A DNA stretch of 64,000 nt from Desulfovibrionaceae bacterium (GTDB lineage: Bacteria > Desulfobacterota > Desulfovibrionia > Desulfovibrionales > Desulfovibrionaceae): the NCBI GenBank assembly GCA_031082225.1, contig JAVHLG010000011.1, positions 16,737 to 80,736 of the forward strand, in the 5' to 3' direction. Below the pieces are notes generated by a model, which saw nothing but the letters and a program-made list of their open reading frames with translations, ran no database searches and was not told the DNA's origin. The position numbers and the translations under genes were made by a program. The first letter of the stretch is position 1. The number at the start of each line of letters is the position of its first letter. Shown here piece by piece: positions 53,625 through 63,608 of this stretch.

Positions 53625-55637
53625 ATGGAATTCGCACTGCTCAAAGAAATCGTCGTCATCTTCTGCCTGTCCATCGGGGTCATTTTCCTGTGCCACAAGA
53701 TCCGGATACCGGCCATCGTCGGGTTTCTGCTCACCGGCGTGCTGGCGGGCCCGCATGGACTGGGGCTTGTGGCCTCGGTACACGAGGTCGAGACCGTGGC
53801 CGAGATCGGCGTCATCCTGCTGCTGTTCACCATCGGCCTGGAGCTGTCCATCTCGGAACTGGTCAAGCTCAGAAAGCCGGTCTTTTTGGGCGGCGCGGCC
53901 CAGGTGCTCCTGACCATCCTGGTCTTCGACGGCGCGGCCTCGCTTCTGGGCTTCACCCCCGGCCAGGCCGCCTTTGCGGGTTTTTTGGTGGCGCTTTCGA
54001 GCACGGCCATCGTGCTCAAGCTTTTGCAGGAGCGGGCCGAAACCAACACCCCCCACGGCCGCATCATCCTGGCCATCCTCATCTTCCAGGACTTGATCAT
54101 CGTGCCCATGATGCTCATGGTCCCCTTCCTCTCCGGCCAGAGCGCGGCCTTGAGCTCCTCGCTTCTGCTCATGACCGCCAAGGGCATCGGCGTCGTGGTC
54201 CTGGTCTTTTTCCTGGCCAGGAAAATCGTGCCCTGGGTGCTGGGGGCGGTCATGCGCACCCGCAGCAAGGAACTGTTTCTTTTGACCACGCTTGGCATCT
54301 GCATGTCCGTGGCCTTTTTGACCTCGAGCCTGGGCCTGTCGCTCTCTCTTGGGGCCTTCCTGGCCGGACTCATCATGTCCGAATCGGAATATTCCTTAAG
54401 CGCCCTGGAGGGCATCCTGCCCTTCCGCGACGTATTCACCAGCCTTTTTTTCGTCTCCGTGGGCATGTTGCTCAACATGTCCTATTTCATCGAGCATGTG
54501 GACACGGTGCTCCTGGCCACTGCGGCGGTCATCGTGGGCAAGACCTTGCTTGCGGCCACGGCGGCGCGCATCCTGGGCTATCCCCTGCGCCCGGCCGTGC
54601 TGGTGGGACTCGCTCTCTGCCAGGTGGGCGAATTTTCTTTCGTCCTGGCCAAGAGCGGGCTGTCCCAGGGGCTTATCGGCCCGGACCACTACCAGCTTTT
54701 CCTGTCGGCCAGCATCCTGACCATGCTTTTGACGCCCTTTTGCATCATGTTCGCCCCGGCCCTGGCCGACCGCATCGGTCGGCTGCCGCTTTTGTCCGCC
54801 GCCGCCGCGCCCTACCGGGGGCCGGACTTGGACGGCGGCCAGCACCGCGACCTCACCGACCACCTCATCATCTGCGGCTTCGGCATCGGCGGCAAACACC
54901 TGGCCCGGGCCGCCAAGGCCGCAGGCGTGGACTACACCATCCTGGAGATGAACCCGGACACGGTGCGCTCCCAGGCCGCCAAGGGCGAACCCATCGCCTA
55001 CGGCGACGCCACCCAGCCGGCCGTGCTCGAGCACGCCGGAATCCACACCGCCCGGGTGCTGGCCATCGTGGTCTCGGACCCGGTGGCCATCCGGCGCATC
55101 ACGGACACGGCCCGCAAGACCAATCCGGCCGTGCACATCGTGGCCCGCACCCGGTTTTTGAACGAGCTCGGCCCACTCAAGGAGCTTGGGGCCAACGACG
55201 TCATTCCCGAGGAGTTCGAGACCTCCATCGAAATATTTACCCGGGTCATGACCAAGTACATGGTGCCACGCATGGACATTGAGCGGTTCGTTTCGGAGGT
55301 GCGCTCCGAGAGCTACGAGATGCTGCGCAACCTGGACATCCAGGGCCAGCCCATGGACGCCCTGAAAAAAGGCTTCACGGGCCTGGACGTCAGCGCCATG
55401 ACCGTGGAGGAAGGCTCCATGCTTGACGGCAAGACCCTGGAGGAATCCGAACTGCGCCGCACCCACGGCCTGACCGTGGTGGCCGTGGGCCGGGGTGGAC
55501 AGGTCTTTGCCAACCCCGACGGCACCCTGCGCTTTACGGCCGGGGATGTGGCCTACGTGTTCGGCCCGCATGGCGACATCACGGCCAAGGCCGGACTCTT
55601 CGCGGCCAGGCGGCGCTCCTGGGAGGAGAATGCATGA
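53625..55637 (+). CDS. CPA2 cation:proton antiporter with RCK domains (KefB-like)
   Basis: A 670-residue protein: about 12 transmembrane helices at 1-385 (VVIFCLSIGVIFLCHKIRIP, VVASVHEVETVAEIGVILLL-like block, ALSSTAIVLKLLQER), an RCK/TrkA-N domain at about 412-530 (LIICGFGIGGKHLARAAKAA, DATQPAVLEHAGI) and a TrkA-C domain at about 580-660. The family exchanges K+ or Na+ for protons, gated by nucleotides on RCK. Start ATG 53625 begins directly with the first helix; no strong ribosome site is seen. The zinc-ribbon gene begins inside its stop (ATGA). Confidence 0.94.
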   Translation: MEFALLKEIVVIFCLSIGVIFLCHKIRIPAIVGFLLTGVLAGPHGLGLVASVHEVETVAEIGVILLLFTIGLELSISELVKLRKPVFLGGAAQVLLTILVFDGAASLLGFTPGQAAFAGFLVALSSTAIVLKLLQERAETNTPHGRIILAILIFQDLIIVPMMLMVPFLSGQSAALSSSLLLMTAKGIGVVVLVFFLARKIVPWVLGAVMRTRSKELFLLTTLGICMSVAFLTSSLGLSLSLGAFLAGLIMSESEYSLSALEGILPFRDVFTSLFFVSVGMLLNMSYFIEHVDTVLLATAAVIVGKTLLAATAARILGYPLRPAVLVGLALCQVGEFSFVLAKSGLSQGLIGPDHYQLFLSASILTMLLTPFCIMFAPALADRIGRLPLLSAAAAPYRGPDLDGGQHRDLTDHLIICGFGIGGKHLARAAKAAGVDYTILEMNPDTVRSQAAKGEPIAYGDATQPAVLEHAGIHTARVLAIVVSDPVAIRRITDTARKTNPAVHIVARTRFLNELGPLKELGANDVIPEEFETSIEIFTRVMTKYMVPRMDIERFVSEVRSESYEMLRNLDIQGQPMDALKKGFTGLDVSAMTVEEGSMLDGKTLEESELRRTHGLTVVAVGRGGQVFANPDGTLRFTAGDVAYVFGPHGDITAKAGLFAARRRSWEENA

Positions 55638-55843
55638 ACGCCATCTTCCAGGTGATCCACAACATCCTGCGCCGCAAGGGGCAACAGGCCCGCTGTCCGC
55701 ATTGCGGAAAACCCCTGTCGCAGCGCGACGCTCCATACAACACGGGCAACATGGGCAACACGGACGACACGGACGCCCAAAACTCCGGCGCGCCCCGCTG
55801 TCCGTCCTGCGGCCGCCCCCTGTCCGGCGACGACACGCCCTGA
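55634..55843 (+). CDS. Small double zinc-ribbon protein
   Basis: A 69-residue protein with two CxxC pairs, CPHCGKPL near residue 21 and CPSCGRPLSG near residue 56, the sort of knuckles that bind zinc. An N-terminal amphipathic helix (AIFQVIHNILRRKGQQ) and a polar spacer (YNTGNMGNTDDTDAQ) separate them. It overlaps the antiporter stop by four bases, so it is translated from the same mRNA. Its function is unknown; it may be an accessory protein of the antiporter. Confidence 0.8.
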   Translation: MNAIFQVIHNILRRKGQQARCPHCGKPLSQRDAPYNTGNMGNTDDTDAQNSGAPRCPSCGRPLSGDDTP

Positions 55844-56901: not shown

Positions 56902-57717
56902 TCATCCCGCTTTCCCCCGGACGATGGGGGCAGGGGGAACGGGCGACTGGTCCGGAGGACATTTTTTCGCCTCGCCGCCCACCACCACCCCGGACACGAA
57001 GGGCTGGGCCAGAAGCGCCACCACCCCGGCCAGCATCACCCACATCCCGGCCATGTAGACCGCCTCGGAAACCGGCCGCAGGGCCATGAGCGCAAACGCC
57101 GCCGCACACAGGCCAAGGCCGACCAGTTCCATCCGCTCCAGGCCAAAGCGCCGGGTCCGGCCAGTCCCGTCCTCCGGGGCCGGAAACTCGAACCACACCC
57201 GGTTCCAGGCCAGGGAAAACCCCACCACCAGGACCGCCCCCCAGGCCATATGCACCGGCAAAACCAGCGTGTCGGCAGGCAGCGGCAAAATGGCCGGGAT
57301 GACCGCCGTGGCCGCCGCCGGGGGATGGTCGGCGTCAAACACCTGCATGAACACCGCCGCCAGGGCCACGGCCAGCCCGAGCGTCAGCGGCAGGGCCAGG
57401 GCCGGGTCGGACACCGCCCAATTCACCGCATAGACGGCGGCAAGCCCGCCCACAGTGGATACGAAATGCCCGGCGATGACCTGCCGGGGCCGGGCCACAC
57501 GCAGATAGGCGCAGGCCGCGCTGATGAAACAGGTGGCCGCCAGGGGCGGATAGAGCACCCCCACCCCGCAGGCCTCGGAGATGGCCGCGACCAGCAGCAA
57601 AAAAAGCCCGGCCCCGGCCGATCCCCAGATCAGCCGCGACAGGGAGATGACCCCGGGCCCGTAGACATCCTTGCGGAACTCCCGACGGCACGGCGGCTTG
57701 AGGCGTATCTGGATCAT
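56902..57717 (-). CDS. HPP family integral membrane protein
   Basis: A 271-residue protein with about five transmembrane segments after a basic N-terminus (MIQIRLKPPCRREFRKD): SRLIWGSAGAGLFLLLVAAI, YPPLAATCFISAACAY, a helix at VSTVGGLAAVYAVNWAV, LPLTLGLAVALAAVFMQVF and others. The family motif HPPAAATAVIP (Ala/Pro-rich after HPP) is present as DADHPPAAATA. Plant and cyanobacterial HPP proteins transport nitrite; bacterial roles are mostly unknown. It follows, in the same direction, the FeS and molybdopterin genes, separated by 305 bases. A T-run terminator follows it. Confidence 0.88.
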   Translation of the reverse strand: MIQIRLKPPCRREFRKDVYGPGVISLSRLIWGSAGAGLFLLLVAAISEACGVGVLYPPLAATCFISAACAYLRVARPRQVIAGHFVSTVGGLAAVYAVNWAVSDPALALPLTLGLAVALAAVFMQVFDADHPPAAATAVIPAILPLPADTLVLPVHMAWGAVLVVGFSLAWNRVWFEFPAPEDGTGRTRRFGLERMELVGLGLCAAAFALMALRPVSEAVYMAGMWVMLAGVVALLAQPFVSGVVVGGEAKKCPPDQSPVPPAPIVRGKAG

Positions 57718-57986
57718 GGGCCCTCCCCTGTGCCGGTTTCCGCCAAAGGCAGGCGCTTCGTCTCGCGTCCCGTCCCCAACACGCCGATGCGGCTTCAGGA
57801 ACAACCCGCTCGGGCGCGAGGTTCCGCCTGGCCTCCGGCCTCGCCCCGTTCGCCAAGACGCCGCCGTGGCCGCGCGGCCGGACGGACCTGTCATGATCCG
57901 CCCGGCCGCCGCCGGTTCCCTCATGTTGCGTTCGCCACTTCCGGCTATGGCCTGATACGCAGCAACACCTTGAAGTTATGATTTTT

Positions 57987-58596: not shown

Positions 58597-60732
58597 CTAC
58601 TTGTGGATGTTCACGCGGGTGGCCACGTGGGCTTCGCCGCCGCGCAGGTCCTGCTCGTCCAGGTGCGATCCGGCGTCGGCGATCAGTTCGTTGTCCCCGG
58701 CCCAGTTCCCCCGCGCCGCCACCTTGCCCATGGTCTGCCCGAAGCCGTGGATCAGCCCGGCGCAGCCCGGCTTTATACGCTCGGACAGGGCCACGGGCAG
58801 CCGGACCTGGCCGGTTGACGAGGCCACGGTGACCATGTCGCCCTCGGCGATGCCCAGCCGCACGGCGTCGATGGGGTTTATGACCACGGGATTGGCGTCC
58901 AGGCCCGAGACCGGGTCGCGCAATTGGGCGTTGTTCTGGGACCAGGCCCCGGTGTTGTTCAAGAAGATGGTGCGGAAGTTCACCAGGATGAAGGGGAACT
59001 CCTTCTCGCCCCGGCGAAACTCCAGGGGCAGTTCGGGACTCGGCCACTGCTGCCCGATATCCGCGTACATCCGCCATTCCAGCTCGATCTTGCCGCTTGC
59101 GGTGTTGAACTTCCCGGCGTCCTCATACTTGCGAAAGCCCGCCGTGCCCGGGGACCACAGCCCGCCATTGTCCAGAAGCTTCTGCATGGACATGCCCACG
59201 CCCGACAACTCGATGTCGTAGTATTCCACATCGTCCTTGAAGGCGAAGTATTCCGGAAACATGCGCTTGCCGAGTTCGATCATCACCCGGTTGGCGTGGC
59301 GCGTCTCGTGCAGTGGATCGATGACCGGGCGGCACAGGGCCGCCGTGTGCCCGTAGTTGTACCACCAGGGCATGTACAGCAGCTCCCAGCGTTCGAAGTT
59401 GGTCTGATCCGGCAGGACCAGATCCGCCCACTTCATGGTCTCCGAGGGCATGATCTCCGTGACCACGAACAGCTCCAGCTTGTAGTCGCCCTTTTCGTCG
59501 CGCATGGTCATGGCCTTGCGCCACTCCCCGGAGCCCATCTCCGACAGGGCCGGGTTGCACTCCGAGGCGAAAAAGACCTTGAGGGTTCCTTCCTTCACGG
59601 CCTGGGCCGCGTACCAGGTGGGTTCCAGGATGAAATTGTAGTGGTCGAACCTGTCCTTGTTGGGACCGGTGCGGTGATAGCCCAGTTCCTTGAGGTTGGG
59701 GGCCGTGGGCACGGGCGTGACCGGGGCCATGGGCGCGATCTCGGGCAGGGGCTGGCCGCCGGGGTTGTCCAGGTTGCCGGTGATGACCAAAAGGATGCTC
59801 CAGACATGCCCCCAGTCCATGGCGTTGCCGTACATGATGGACTTAAACGCGTCGATGCACACGCTTTTGGCCTCGGCGCACATCTTCGCCAGCCTGACGA
59901 TGTCCGCAGCCGGAACATCGCAGATGCGGCTCATGTTCTCCGGGGTCTTGTCCGCGATAAATGCCATGAGATTGTCCATGTCCCCGGGCCGCACCCATTT
60001 GTCGCAAAAGGCCTTGTCGTACAGGTCGTTCGTCAGCAGATAGTGGCACACGCCCAGAAACAGGGCTGCGTCGCCGCCGGGCTTGATGGGGATCCACCAG
60101 TCGGCCTTGGCGGCCTCGGAGCGGAAGATGGGGTCGATGACCACAAGCTTCGCCCCGCGCGCCTTGGCGTTCAGGATGTCCCGGGGCACGCAGGCGTCGT
60201 CCAGGCAGCCGAAGGGATGCCTGCCGGAGAGGATCATGAGCCCGCCCTTGGGCACGGTGTAGTACATGGGCGCGATGTGGTGGTTGGGGAAGCAGCCGAA
60301 GGTGTGCAGATGGGCCATGATCTTGGCCGAGTCGCAGTGCGGCAGCCCCGTGGAGATGAACCCGCCCGCAGCGTTGACGAAGCGCCACTTGGGGTCGGTG
60401 GTGGAGTGGGGAAACATGGAATAGGTGAAGGTGTGGGCCTCGCCGCGCTCCCGCAGTTCGCGCAGCTTTTTTTCCATGATATCCAGGGCCTCGTCCCAGG
60501 TGATGCGCTCGAATCTGCCCTCGCCGCGCTCGCCCACCCGCTTGAGCGGATATTTGAGGCGTTCTGCGGAATACAGGGTGGTGATGCCGGCCATGCCCTT
60601 GACGCACATCTTGCCCCTGGCCAGGGGGTTGCCCTTGACCTCCTTGACCACGCCGTCCTCGACGCGGGCTAAAATGGCGCACTCCGCCTTGCACTGGTAA
60701 CAGACGGTGGGAATCCATTCGTTTCGGTGCAT
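58597..60732 (-). CDS. Molybdopterin-dependent oxidoreductase, cytoplasmic
   Basis: A 711-residue catalytic subunit of the bis-MGD enzyme family. The N-terminal 4Fe-4S motif CYQCKAEC...GKMCVKG is followed by the molybdenum-binding domains, with a likely metal-ligand Cys in GLPHCDSAKIMAHL and the cofactor motifs ASECNPALSEMGSGEW, LDNPGGQPLPE and the C-terminal VINPIDAVRLGIAEGDMVTV. No Tat signal peptide is present, so it acts in the cytoplasm, unlike nitrate or polysulfide reductases of the periplasm. The substrate is unknown; relatives include acetylene hydratase, thiosulfate- and arsenate-type enzymes. It is followed by its FeS subunit and preceded by the sigma/binding-protein fusion. Confidence 0.93.
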   Translation of the reverse strand: MHRNEWIPTVCYQCKAECAILARVEDGVVKEVKGNPLARGKMCVKGMAGITTLYSAERLKYPLKRVGERGEGRFERITWDEALDIMEKKLRELRERGEAHTFTYSMFPHSTTDPKWRFVNAAGGFISTGLPHCDSAKIMAHLHTFGCFPNHHIAPMYYTVPKGGLMILSGRHPFGCLDDACVPRDILNAKARGAKLVVIDPIFRSEAAKADWWIPIKPGGDAALFLGVCHYLLTNDLYDKAFCDKWVRPGDMDNLMAFIADKTPENMSRICDVPAADIVRLAKMCAEAKSVCIDAFKSIMYGNAMDWGHVWSILLVITGNLDNPGGQPLPEIAPMAPVTPVPTAPNLKELGYHRTGPNKDRFDHYNFILEPTWYAAQAVKEGTLKVFFASECNPALSEMGSGEWRKAMTMRDEKGDYKLELFVVTEIMPSETMKWADLVLPDQTNFERWELLYMPWWYNYGHTAALCRPVIDPLHETRHANRVMIELGKRMFPEYFAFKDDVEYYDIELSGVGMSMQKLLDNGGLWSPGTAGFRKYEDAGKFNTASGKIELEWRMYADIGQQWPSPELPLEFRRGEKEFPFILVNFRTIFLNNTGAWSQNNAQLRDPVSGLDANPVVINPIDAVRLGIAEGDMVTVASSTGQVRLPVALSERIKPGCAGLIHGFGQTMGKVAARGNWAGDNELIADAGSHLDEQDLRGGEAHVATRVNIHK

Positions 60733-60949
60733 ATTGCGTGTCCTCCGTTAAGAATGTGCTCGTCATGCGGCCCCGGACGCGAGGGAAAAGGAACCGGCGT
60801 GCCGCATGTGTGCCGCCCTTTCCAGGGAAGAGCGGTTCCCGGGGGAAAAAGTTACCGCGCACACAAAAAAACATGAAAACGCCCGCGAGACGCCCACGGG
60901 AGGGGGAGGGGCCGCTGTGGAAACGGCGGGTGCGGCGTATAAAACAGGG

Positions 60950-62335
60950 TCAGGCGTAGTCCGGACAGACGAACCGGCCCAGGTCGAAGGACGCGGCGGC
61001 GGACGGGGCGTCCCGGCCCAGCATGGGCAAAAACACCTCCATGCGCTCCGGCCGCGGCCGCAGGTCGTCGAAGGTGACCAGACGCCCGGACAGGACCGAA
61101 TGGGCCACGTCCCGGGAAACCCCGGTGCAGGCGGCCAGGATGCACGCCCCCAGGCCCGGGTCGTCACGGACCCTGTCCCTGGCGGCCAGCAGGTTGCGCA
61201 CGTACTTTCGGACCACCTCGCCGTGGCGGCTGGCGAAATCCCGGCGCACGGCCAGGATGCAGCAGGTGTGCCCGGGCAGGATGTCCTTGGAGAAAAGCAT
61301 GGTCCGGCCGAGCTTTTCCTGCACGCACTTGGCCCCCCAGGGCTCGGCGCAGAAAAAGGCGTCGATCTTTTTGGCCCGCATGGAGGAGATGGCATAGGAG
61401 GGGCTGATGACCGACAGGCTCAGGTCGGCCAGTTCGGGACGGGCGGCGGCCAGGTGGTCGAGGAGCACCTGATGGGTGCTGTAGGGCGCGGGCAGCCCCA
61501 GGCGGCGCATCCGGCCCTCGGAGGCCACGGACAGGGAACTGCCGTCATGGTGGGCGTCCATGACATGCAGCAGGTCGGCGCCCATGGCGGCCAGGCGCAT
61601 GGCCAGGGGGGCCATGATGAAGGCCGCGTCCACCCGCCCCTGACGCAGATCGGCCGTGAGCGCCTGCCAGGAAAGATAGCGGCGCGGGGCCACGGGCAGG
61701 GGGCGGTCCCGGAAAAGCTCCTGGACGGCCATGGGCAGCAGATGGTCGGTGATGGGCATGTAGCCCACGCGCAAAATGCCCGCCCCGCCGTAGGGCAGCA
61801 TCTTCTCCCGCAAAATCTCCCGGGCGGCGTGCAGCCGCTTTTTCACCGTGCCCTCGCCAAGCCCCAGGGCCAAGGCGATGTCCCCGCTGGTCCGGCCCTG
61901 GCCGTAATGTCCCCGGGCAACCTCCCGCAGATGCCCGGGCAGGGCCTTAAGGGCCGCGTCAAAGGCGGCCCGGAGCCGGGCCGCATGGAGACCTTCGGCG
62001 GGATCGCCGGTTTCGGCCAGGGGCAAGGCCTCGTCCTGGCTGACGTCGTCGAGGGATTGGGCGGCATGCTGGCCAAGCGCCAGCCGCGTACACTGGTTGC
62101 GCACGATGGCCGCCATCCAGGCCGGGAAGGATTCGGGCTCGCGCAGTGAGCCAAGGCTGCAAAACGCGGCCAGAAAGGCCTCCTGCACGGCGTCCTCGGC
62201 CAGGGAACTCCCGGAGAGCCTGCGCCGGGCGATGCACAGGACGGACGGATAGAACCGCCCGGCCAGGGTCCGCCAGGCGCGCGCGTCGCCAGCCCGGGCC
62301 AGACGCACCAGATCGCCGAGGGGGGTCGTGTCCAT
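60950..62335 (-). CDS. ECF sigma factor fused to a NrtA/SsuA-like solute-binding domain
   Basis: A 461-residue fusion. Residues 27-90 carry sigma region 2 (FYPSVLCIARRRLSGSSLAE, DAVQEAFLAAFCSLGSLREP) and 123-178 sigma region 4 (LPGHLREVARGHYGQGRTSG, IALALGLGEGTVKKRLHAAR). From about 187 a type-II periplasmic-binding-like domain follows: ILRVGYMPITDHLLPMAVQE, RQGRVDAAFIMAPLAMRLAA, DAFFCAEPWGAKCVQEKLG, FASRHGEVVRKYVRNLLAAR. It resembles nitrate/bicarbonate/sulfonate binding proteins (NrtA, CmpA, SsuA) but has no signal peptide, so it would sense its ligand in the cytoplasm. ATG 62335 has CAGGGA upstream. It lies 217 bases before the molybdopterin gene on the same strand and may be its regulator. 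Confidence 0.9.
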   Translation of the reverse strand: MDTTPLGDLVRLARAGDARAWRTLAGRFYPSVLCIARRRLSGSSLAEDAVQEAFLAAFCSLGSLREPESFPAWMAAIVRNQCTRLALGQHAAQSLDDVSQDEALPLAETGDPAEGLHAARLRAAFDAALKALPGHLREVARGHYGQGRTSGDIALALGLGEGTVKKRLHAAREILREKMLPYGGAGILRVGYMPITDHLLPMAVQELFRDRPLPVAPRRYLSWQALTADLRQGRVDAAFIMAPLAMRLAAMGADLLHVMDAHHDGSSLSVASEGRMRRLGLPAPYSTHQVLLDHLAAARPELADLSLSVISPSYAISSMRAKKIDAFFCAEPWGAKCVQEKLGRTMLFSKDILPGHTCCILAVRRDFASRHGEVVRKYVRNLLAARDRVRDDPGLGACILAACTGVSRDVAHSVLSGRLVTFDDLRPRPERMEVFLPMLGRDAPSAAASFDLGRFVCPDYA

Positions 62336-62552
62336 GTCCCTGCCGCCTTGTGCCGCACCCCTCCGCCGCACGGAGAGGGTCACGATTTGCAAAATTACCA
62401 GGACAGCGGCCGCAAAGGCAAGAGGCGTCGCCAGGGGCGCGGCCGACCGGTTGCCCTTCCGCCCGTTTCCCGGTAGGCCTGCCCTCGCGGCGCGCGGCGT
62501 CCCCCGCGCCGTTTTCCCTGCGCCGTTTTCACGCCACGCCAAGGAGACCCTC

Positions 62553-63608
62553 ATGGCCAAAATCCTCTACGGGGTGCACGGCTCCCAGCACGGCCACGCC
62601 ATCCGGGCCACGGTCATCGCCCGGCATCTGCCGCACCACGAATTCCTGTTCGTCTCCAGCGAGGAAGGGGCCGGGCTGCTCTCCCGGGAATGGCGCGTGG
62701 AGCATTTCGCCAACCCCGGTACCCGCTACAGGAACTACAAGGTGGACACCCTGGCCACCCTGGGGCTGGCCGCGCGCACCTTCGCCCGGCGCGGCCGGGA
62801 ACTGGACCGCCTGGCGCGGCTTATCGACGAGTTTAGGCCCGACGCGGCCATCTCCGATTACGAATACTTCGTGCCCATCGCGGCCAAACGGGCGAACATT
62901 CCCTGCCTGTCGCTGGACCACCAGCACGTCATCTCCTCCTGCGTCCACGACATCCCGGCCAGCATGCGCTTTGACTATTACGGCATCCTGGCCTCCATCC
63001 GCCTGCTTTTCAGCAACTGCACGGACTACCTTTCCATCTCCTTCTACCAGCCGCAGGTCAAATCCGGCCTTCGCGCCCGCATCGCGCCGCCGCTTCTGCG
63101 CGACAGCGTGTTTCGCCACACGCCATCGGACGGTGACCACATCCTGGTCTACCAAAGCTGCTCCATCTGCGACGCCTTCGTGCCGTTTTTAAAAACCCTG
63201 CCCCGGGAATGCCGGGTCTACGGCTACAAGGTGGACCGCGTGGACAAAAACCTGACCTTCCGGGGCTATTCCGAGGAGGGGCTTCTGGCCGACCTGTCGA
63301 GCTGCGCCTACGTCATCTGCGGCGGCAGCCACAACCTCATCTCCGAGGCCCTCTACTACGGCAAGCCCGTCATCTCCCTGCCCGTGGGCGGGGCCGTGGA
63401 ACAGCATATCAACGCCGCCTACCTGGAAAAGCTCGGCTACGGCCGCCACCTGGACATGATGCGCCTGGATGCCGCCATGGTCCGCGATTTCGAGGCCGGT
63501 TTGCCCGCGCGGCGCGCCGCCATCCGGGCCGCCAATTTCCGGGGCAACGAACTGGTGTTCGGTCTTGTCGAGGACTTCGTCAAAACCGGACGGCTCCCCC
63601 TGGCGTAG
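62553..63608 (+). CDS. GT28-like glycosyltransferase
   Basis: A 351-residue glycosyltransferase of the GT-B fold. N-terminus ILYGVHGSQHGHAIRATVIA and HHEFLFVSSEEGAGLL; the acceptor half is at about 70-190, and the donor half ends in GGSHNLISEALYYGKPVISL, PVGGAVEQHINAAYLEKLGY, which is the sugar-nucleotide-binding signature seen in MurG-like and UDP-glycosyltransferase-like proteins. There is no membrane segment. AAGGAG precedes the ATG at 62553. It may act in lipid or flagellar glycan synthesis; the next gene encodes flagellin. Confidence 0.88.
   Translation: MAKILYGVHGSQHGHAIRATVIARHLPHHEFLFVSSEEGAGLLSREWRVEHFANPGTRYRNYKVDTLATLGLAARTFARRGRELDRLARLIDEFRPDAAISDYEYFVPIAAKRANIPCLSLDHQHVISSCVHDIPASMRFDYYGILASIRLLFSNCTDYLSISFYQPQVKSGLRARIAPPLLRDSVFRHTPSDGDHILVYQSCSICDAFVPFLKTLPRECRVYGYKVDRVDKNLTFRGYSEEGLLADLSSCAYVICGGSHNLISEALYYGKPVISLPVGGAVEQHINAAYLEKLGYGRHLDMMRLDAAMVRDFEAGLPARRAAIRAANFRGNELVFGLVEDFVKTGRLPLA

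Follow-up and report, generated by a model that had tools for sequence, protein, structure and literature searches.

A sigma factor fused to a solute-binding domain as the probable dedicated regulator of an adjoining molybdoenzyme operon in Desulfovibrionaceae

Introduction

Most ECF sigma factors are under the control of a separate anti-sigma protein; some are regulated by smaller fused domains. Gating by the extension has been put forward for extensions of the ECF41 type and, with the sensor acting in trans, for NasS-NasT. The consulted sections of PMC8999054 describe a SnoaL-like C-terminal extension for ECF41, a TPR extension for ECF42 and a metal-binding one for ECF238/CorE; SnoaL, TPR, Cys-rich and other domains are the extensions mentioned there and in the corresponding sections of PMC8103513. 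No solute-binding extension is named in these sections of the two papers, though the full ECF classification of 2021 may contain such a group without a name. Likewise, no fusion of a sigma factor with a solute-binding protein (SBP) is named in the titles and abstracts retrieved by a literature search, whose scope did not include the main ECF classification paper.

Relatives of the nitrate-binding protein NrtA are found in other settings. In NasS-NasT, a cytoplasmic sensor of the NrtA type controls the regulator of an assimilatory nitrate/nitrite reductase operon, as stated in the consulted part of PMC3795266. The C-terminal regulatory domain of NrtC and CmpC is fused to the ABC ATPase of a transporter and not to a transcription factor, and the Staphylococcus aureus SBP 3un6 as well as stand-alone SBPs linked to CO dehydrogenase are parts of ABC importers.

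The present locus lies in a 64,000-nucleotide stretch of a Desulfovibrionaceae genome (GCA_031082225.1), referred to here as the window. Its product resembles ECF41, ECF42 and ECF238, as these are described in the sections of PMC8999054 mentioned, in that the ECF sigma2-sigma4 core carries a C-terminal domain and is not accompanied by a linked anti-sigma factor, but the extension is a whole solute-binding domain of about 270 residues. Unlike the SBPs of ABC transporters, it has neither an export signal nor a linked permease or ATPase. While NasT is a separate RNA-binding protein, here the sensor is joined to a sigma factor, with Cys at a position that is Lys in NrtC and CmpC. By analogy, the fusion may act as a sensor-extended ECF factor, comparable to a NasS moved into cis.

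Results

Architecture of the fusion protein

The sequence-only reading had described one continuous frame encoding sigma regions 2 and 4 and an entire NrtA/SsuA-type domain without a signal peptide. Pfam searches with the 461-aa product bear this out (Table 1). PF04542, PF08281 and PF04545 all lie above their cut-offs, TIGR02937 reaches 76.3 bits (cut-off 42.9), and no region-3 family occurs among the domain matches, so that the protein has regions 2 and 4 but lacks region 3, the combination typical of ECF factors. An export leader is absent; its place is occupied by the sigma domain. The predicted structure is confident except for a short linker (residues 92-109), while the relative placement of the two halves is uncertain (pTM 0.70). 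In this model the binding half adopts an NrtA-type fold and superposes over 270-276 residues on 3un6, which ranks best, and on NrtA and the CmpC regulatory domain, which rank next.

Table 1. Positions of the fusion gene, its domains, the predicted promoter and the linked operon in the window
Feature	Position	Strand	Remarks
Fusion gene, ECF-type sigma factor plus NrtA/SsuA-like solute-binding domain, 461 aa	60950..62335	(-)	single frame
Sigma-70 region 2, residues 26-84	62084..62260	(-)	Pfam PF04542, E 8.9e-11; profile matches RpoE/SigH/SigW structures
Sigma-70 region 4, residues 123-177	61805..61969	(-)	above Pfam cut-off
Codon of residue 160, in the region 4 helix-turn-helix	61856-61858	(-)	varies in step with the -35 element
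Solute-binding domain, residues 188-461 by structure	60953..61774	(-)	Pfam PF13379 (NMT1_2), Pfam span 188-390; fold matches
Terminator-like stem-loop between fusion gene and promoter	60882..60900	(-)	consensus scan, weak
Predicted promoter for the fusion, -35 GGTAAC(TTTTT), -10 GCTCTT	60828..60856	(-)	conserved spacer motif
Molybdopterin enzyme, 711 aa, begins at first FeS motif	58597..60732	(-)	closest solved relative polysulfide/thiosulfate reductase 2vpw
Multi-[4Fe-4S] (DmsB-like) partner, 186 aa	58023..58583	(-)	
HPP-family membrane protein	56902..57924	(-)	Pfam PF04982; tblastn

Conservation and distribution

All 114 homologues among the matches listed (database proteins, E<=1e-20) combine PF13379 with one or more sigma Pfam domains and so possess both halves; within this set the fused domain is conserved through the family, as in extended ECF factors. 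The closest named homologue among the matches listed, 92% identical, belongs to Desulfolutivibrio (Desulfovibrio) sulfodismutans, and the genome of the window appears to fall into the genus of this species. An alignment of 112 fusions, with identities down to 33%, revealed 23 invariant columns, 21 of which are located at or after position 194 and thus in the binding half. Invariant residues include H198, W223, G265, S266, C329, P332, W333, H356, C358 and C359; H262 is nearly so.

The genome collection yielded 24 fusion loci (L021-L044), one locus cut by a contig end (L045) and 47 loci with a related binding domain alone (L046-L092). Within the order, the fusion was found in 32 of 348 genomes, in one of them (G461) only partially, at a contig start. 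Nine of the 395 genomes sampled across the phylum matched the query at E<=1e-30, three of the same genus over the full length and six by the binding half only. An unrooted tree, in which L075 carries a long-branch warning, separated 31 fusions from the 47 stand-alone binding proteins by one branch (SH-aLRT 99). The stand-alone, sulfur-linked relatives show only about 25-35% identity, and judged by eye 46 of the 47 stand-alone proteins possess a twin-arginine- or lipobox-like leader. A stand-alone relative in a Bacillota MAG (L089:9770-10690) has no leader recognizable by eye, keeps the HxCC motif and lacks the usual transporter and sulfur genes in its neighbourhood.

A separation of the two domains into different genes in most genomes, a possibility raised by the sequence-only reading, was not encountered: no split form was seen beside the molybdopterin operon in the genome collection. 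Two loci that appear to be one and the same contig, L045 and L176, have the binding half alone beside the operon, but as they begin at a contig edge they are truncated and not split.

The linked operon

The idea that the two-domain architecture keeps the same molybdopterin neighbour was confirmed. In 23 of the 24 fusion loci the enzyme and FeS genes follow downstream in the same orientation; the contig of the remaining one (L041) ends too early. A transporter gene of either the HPP (16 loci) or the formate/nitrite type (FNT, Form_Nir_trans; 8 loci) was detected by tblastn on the same strand in all 24. Three gene orders occur: fusion-enzyme-FeS-HPP as in the window, fusion-HPP-enzyme-FeS and fusion-FNT-enzyme-FeS. 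In the window, the real HPP start is probably near 57717, since the alignments with many homologues do not begin before about residue 62-70. A frame without family match between fusion and enzyme in L042 turned out to be a wrong-frame call overlapping the FNT gene.

Among the 348 genomes of the order, the fusion occurs in 32, the enzyme in 37 and both in 31; in the exception, G455, the contig ends inside the HPP gene. The enzyme without the fusion is present in six genomes of the order and, in the phylum sample, in G177 and G407, and tblastn detected no fusion in the flanks of these fusion-free copies within the flanking sequence covered. In L173 (G670:C1:1539900-1557000), a second enzyme operon lacking both fusion and promoter motif has an integrase (rve) gene directly upstream. 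In another genome without fusion (G452) the enzyme gene lies in two pieces on contigs C26 and C53, one with an in-frame TAA, and the operon is possibly decaying. Relatives of the enzyme with about 60% identity exist in MAGs labelled Anaerolineae and Promethearchaeota.

The best solved match of the enzyme is the polysulfide/thiosulfate reductase PsrA/PhsA (2vpw; E 5.7e-66). As in these proteins, a Cys (Cys133) occupies the aligned metal-ligand position (segment slCtapr of 2vpw). Unlike them, the enzyme starts directly at its first FeS motif, without a leader; the operon genes seen include no PsrC-like gene, and the score of the enzyme for PhsA thiosulfate reductase (NF012032) is far below the cut-off (228.9 vs 694 bits). 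The PhsA-like enzyme is probably cytoplasmic. Formate dehydrogenases have a His after the metal-ligand Cys; this assignment was rejected, since an Asp stands there and PsrA scores far higher.

Apart from the operon, no neighbour within 4 kb recurs in more than three of the 24 fusion loci. Neither a NasT (ANTAR) partner, whose place is taken by the fused sigma factor, nor an ABC permease cluster was detected in these loci, the latter being present at 34 of the 47 stand-alone relatives. The proposal that the fused domain would replace an anti-sigma factor is based on this lack of a recurrent extra neighbour, in a census made with a crude ORF caller that detected even the fusion in no more than 16 of the 24 loci. 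In L032 (15470-17128) the gene after the operon encodes an FmdE plus MoCF_biosynth protein, a possible cofactor partner of the enzyme; crude clustering places ORFs of four loci together with it.

A conserved promoter-like site between fusion and operon

A look for a shared ECF-type motif before the operon had been suggested by the sequence-only reading, and such a motif was found in the gap between the fusion stop codon and the next gene (82-529 bp). In 36 non-identical gaps from loci related by descent, the -35 element [GC][GTC]AAC[CT].. is present throughout; of the 36 regions that precede the fusion gene, 3 contain it. The string AAC-N18-CTC occurs in 28 of the 36 gaps, while other spacings from 5 to 30 gave 0-9 and the reverse strand none at N18; dinucleotide shuffling produced a mean of 1.74 and a maximum of 6 in 300 rounds. 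If 20 nt are admitted besides 18 nt, CT[CT] follows the -35 element in 35 gaps, L037 having neither. As CTCTT fits both distances, the 20-nt class is confined to seven loci without the 18-nt form, mostly those with HPP first. The resulting consensus, G[GC][GT]AAC..18..CTCTT, combines an ECF-type AAC -35 element with a fixed -10 spacing.

In the window the site (60856-60828, minus strand) reads GGTAACTTTTTCCCCCGGGAACCGCTCTT, i.e. GGTAACTTTTT-N12-GCTCTT. Its matrix score of 35.1 bits, compared to 9.1 for the next best site in the 64 kb, is partly given by construction, as the site belongs to the 25 distinct sites from which the matrix was made. A terminator scan of 60600-62700 found five candidates (shuffled mean 1.6, sd 1.6), and the stem-loop upstream of the site may separate two transcription units.

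The 4.1-Mb genome of the organism contains a single perfect match to the consensus, at the window site, and three with one mismatch, two of which are a palindromic repeat. At two mismatches 22 matches were counted vs 17 for a reversed-pattern control; weaker targets are therefore indistinguishable from noise. In the 21 of 32 fusion genomes that were scanned, the operon is preceded by a perfect match (9), a match with one mismatch (8) or a more divergent one (4), and G694 has one perfect match away from the operon. In the eight operon-bearing genomes without the fusion the consensus is missing at the operon, and no perfect match exists anywhere in them. A looser scan of eight fusion-free operon starts revealed one weak -35-like string (L174); in L169 and L173 it gave loose AAC-N20-CT matches that lack the T tract. 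A large regulon, considered as well, is unsupported by the genome-wide pattern scans, in which near-matches mostly belong to the dispersed palindromic repeat; weaker targets stay possible.

Autoregulation is usual for ECF factors. For the fusion gene it is not supported: the best matrix score upstream of the 36 fusion genes is 4.9 bits, and a loose AAC-N18-CT occurs there in only two of 36.

Residue 160 and the -35 element

The helix-turn-helix of region 4 reads the -35 element in sigma factors. The base before AAC is G in 22 and T in 14 of the 36 loci, and residue 160 is Pro in each of the 22 G-class loci and in none of the T class. Six of the 461 positions share no residue between the classes, but only at position 160 is one class invariant. 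Mutual information is slightly higher for position 235 of the binding half than for 160, and for region 4 as a unit it shows only a slight excess (0.147 vs 0.116-0.124 elsewhere). On a tree built without region 4, residue 160 and the -35 base each change twice and in step, one of the changes leading to the genus of the window. With only two events (sign test, p 0.5), the covariation cannot reach significance; it supports a protein-DNA link without proving it.

The binding pocket and the context of its relatives

The pocket pattern of the fusion, W..H..GS..EP..HxCC, is shared with exported proteins whose genes neighbour those for CO dehydrogenase and sulfur assimilation. All 47 stand-alone relatives keep W223, H262, G265, S266, S286, E331, P332, H356, C358 and C359, and 45 keep H288; they differ by Val at C329 (47/47) and mostly by Arg at H263. 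P194, D197 and H198 are kept as well, but this is a selection effect because the search pattern covered these residues, the others being unaffected. W223 aligns with a Trp of CmpC and NrtC and H288 with a His of CmpC. All 112 aligned fusions have Cys359 in the Lys column of the NrtC/CmpC sensor domains, presumably the Lys by which NrtA contacts nitrate. Nitrate, which the sequence-only reading had listed among its ligand candidates, is thereby weakened and, as a plain analogy to NrtA, was kept only as a rival, whereas sulfur compounds gained from the context of the stand-alone relatives. An NrtA-length protein in L019 was considered as a route to the nitrate ligands of NrtA and dismissed because its sequence appeared unlike NrtA.

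Within 6 kb of the 47 stand-alone genes, anaerobic CO dehydrogenase was identified in 24 cases, cysK in 8, O-acetylhomoserine sulfhydrylase in 10 and a nifS/iscS-type desulfurase in 5, at least one of the last three in 19. These families, like the ABC permease cluster counted above at the same distance, stem from crude ORF clustering with one or two representatives identified per cluster; the CO dehydrogenase representative exceeds the TIGR01702 cut-off. Sulfur genes of the cysK/metY/nifS type are absent from the 24 fusion loci. HxCC binding proteins accompanied by ABC permease and ATPase, anaerobic CO dehydrogenase and cysK/metY/nifS occur in Geobacter, Chlorobi and Bacillota (L046-L092, e.g. 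L055:7870-12454 and L070:9860-17703), and in Campylobacterota stand-alone HxCC loci include OsmC and a distantly acyl-CoA-dehydrogenase-like protein. A location of cooS beside cysteine synthase and an ABC transporter is recorded in the consulted part of PMC7306483. The stand-alone HxCC system probably acquires sulfur.

Discussion

The fusion is very probably the dedicated sigma factor of the adjoining operon, since the spacer motif is conserved, represents the sole perfect match in the genome, is missing at the fusion-free operon copies that were checked and varies in step with residue 160. Recognition of this promoter by the fusion is strongly suggested, and gating of its activity by a ligand can be assumed with moderate confidence from the architecture. 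The fusion would bind core RNA polymerase and the spacer promoter. The unliganded binding domain would hold the sigma part inactive, and closure on the ligand would free it. As the fusion apparently does not activate its own gene, the sensor would be supplied at a fixed level and would serve one main target operon. It appears likely that a one-protein sigma factor with binding domain reads a single conserved site before the operon, presumably when it is ligand-bound.

Two explanations deny the binding half this role, and both seem very improbable. It might be a passive remnant, the sigma factor being active whenever made and controlled only by its own transcription; indeed, a fusion alone is no proof of sensing. 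Yet nearly all invariant columns of this widely diverged family fall into the binding half, whose pocket is common to stand-alone, mostly exported binding proteins. It is similarly hard to believe that an ordinary ECF factor is held by an unlinked anti-sigma factor while the SBP half aids transport or the enzyme. Unlinked partners are invisible to a neighbourhood analysis, but the lack of a recurrent non-operon gene, within the limited sensitivity of the crude ORF calls, and of signal peptide and ABC permease cluster speaks against this reading.

What the domain binds is indicated more weakly. The operon's substrate or its product may serve as the ligand; the most likely candidate is a small sulfur anion resembling thiosulfate, polysulfide or thiocarbonate, which the transporter and the PhsA-like, probably cytoplasmic enzyme would both handle. 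A sulfur compound is tentatively favoured because of the sulfur and CO dehydrogenase context of the stand-alone relatives and because the enzyme is nearest to polysulfide/thiosulfate reductase. Against it count the missing sulfur genes at the fusion loci and the transporters: the FNT protein has the nitrite channel NirC as its best solved relative, and nitrite transport is reported for an HPP protein (consulted part of PMC7438415, citing Maeda 2014). The transporters also speak for the main rival, a nitrogen oxyanion, above all nitrite, or else nitrate. The sigma circuit would then be a fused counterpart of NasS-NasT guarding against or using nitrite, in line with the fold ranking of NrtA and CmpC directly after 3un6 and with NasS, a cytoplasmic NrtA relative, sensing nitrate/nitrite (PMC3795266, part consulted). 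This is rather unlikely in view of the Lys-to-Cys exchange, the gene context of the pocket relatives and the kinship of the enzyme. About equally doubtful is a response to a metal ion or the thiol/redox state through the His and vicinal Cys residues instead of a transported anion. These residues (H262, H356, C358, C359) are strictly or almost strictly conserved in fusions and stand-alone relatives alike, 3un6 has the same CC pair, albeit without H356, in an entry whose title names bound zinc, and CorE is a precedent for a metal-sensing ECF extension (PMC8999054, sections consulted); however, the same residues are found in proteins that belong mostly to ABC importers beside sulfur genes.

Returning to the sulfur anion, it is conceivable, though with somewhat less assurance than the promoter account, that the proteins form a family of one-protein, small-molecule-gated sigma factors, in which an ECF sigma factor is directly subject to the opening and closing of a Venus-flytrap domain related to those of sulfur-compound importers. 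In each genome they would serve as a private single-promoter switch for an undescribed cytoplasmic molybdenum-dependent sulfur-anion reductase and its interchangeable FNT/HPP channel. If this is true, an ECF factor equipped with a complete receptor for a nutrient would match a repressor in simplicity while working through the polymerase. Having a single conserved promoter, such a switch lends itself to direct tests and to use as a portable sensor, and the ligand, if found, may reveal the substrate of a molybdoenzyme of sulfate reducers.

Two further observations concern the surrounding genome. The dispersed palindrome, GGAAACCTTTT..AAAAGGTTTCC followed by CCC, has many copies in the same genome (G000 contigs C9, C11, C68, C97, C104, C105, C131 and C137), and similar palindromes exist in G001 and G695. 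In the window, a 69-aa ORF with two CPxCG zinc-ribbon-like motifs (55634-55843, plus strand) lies beside an HD-domain gene.
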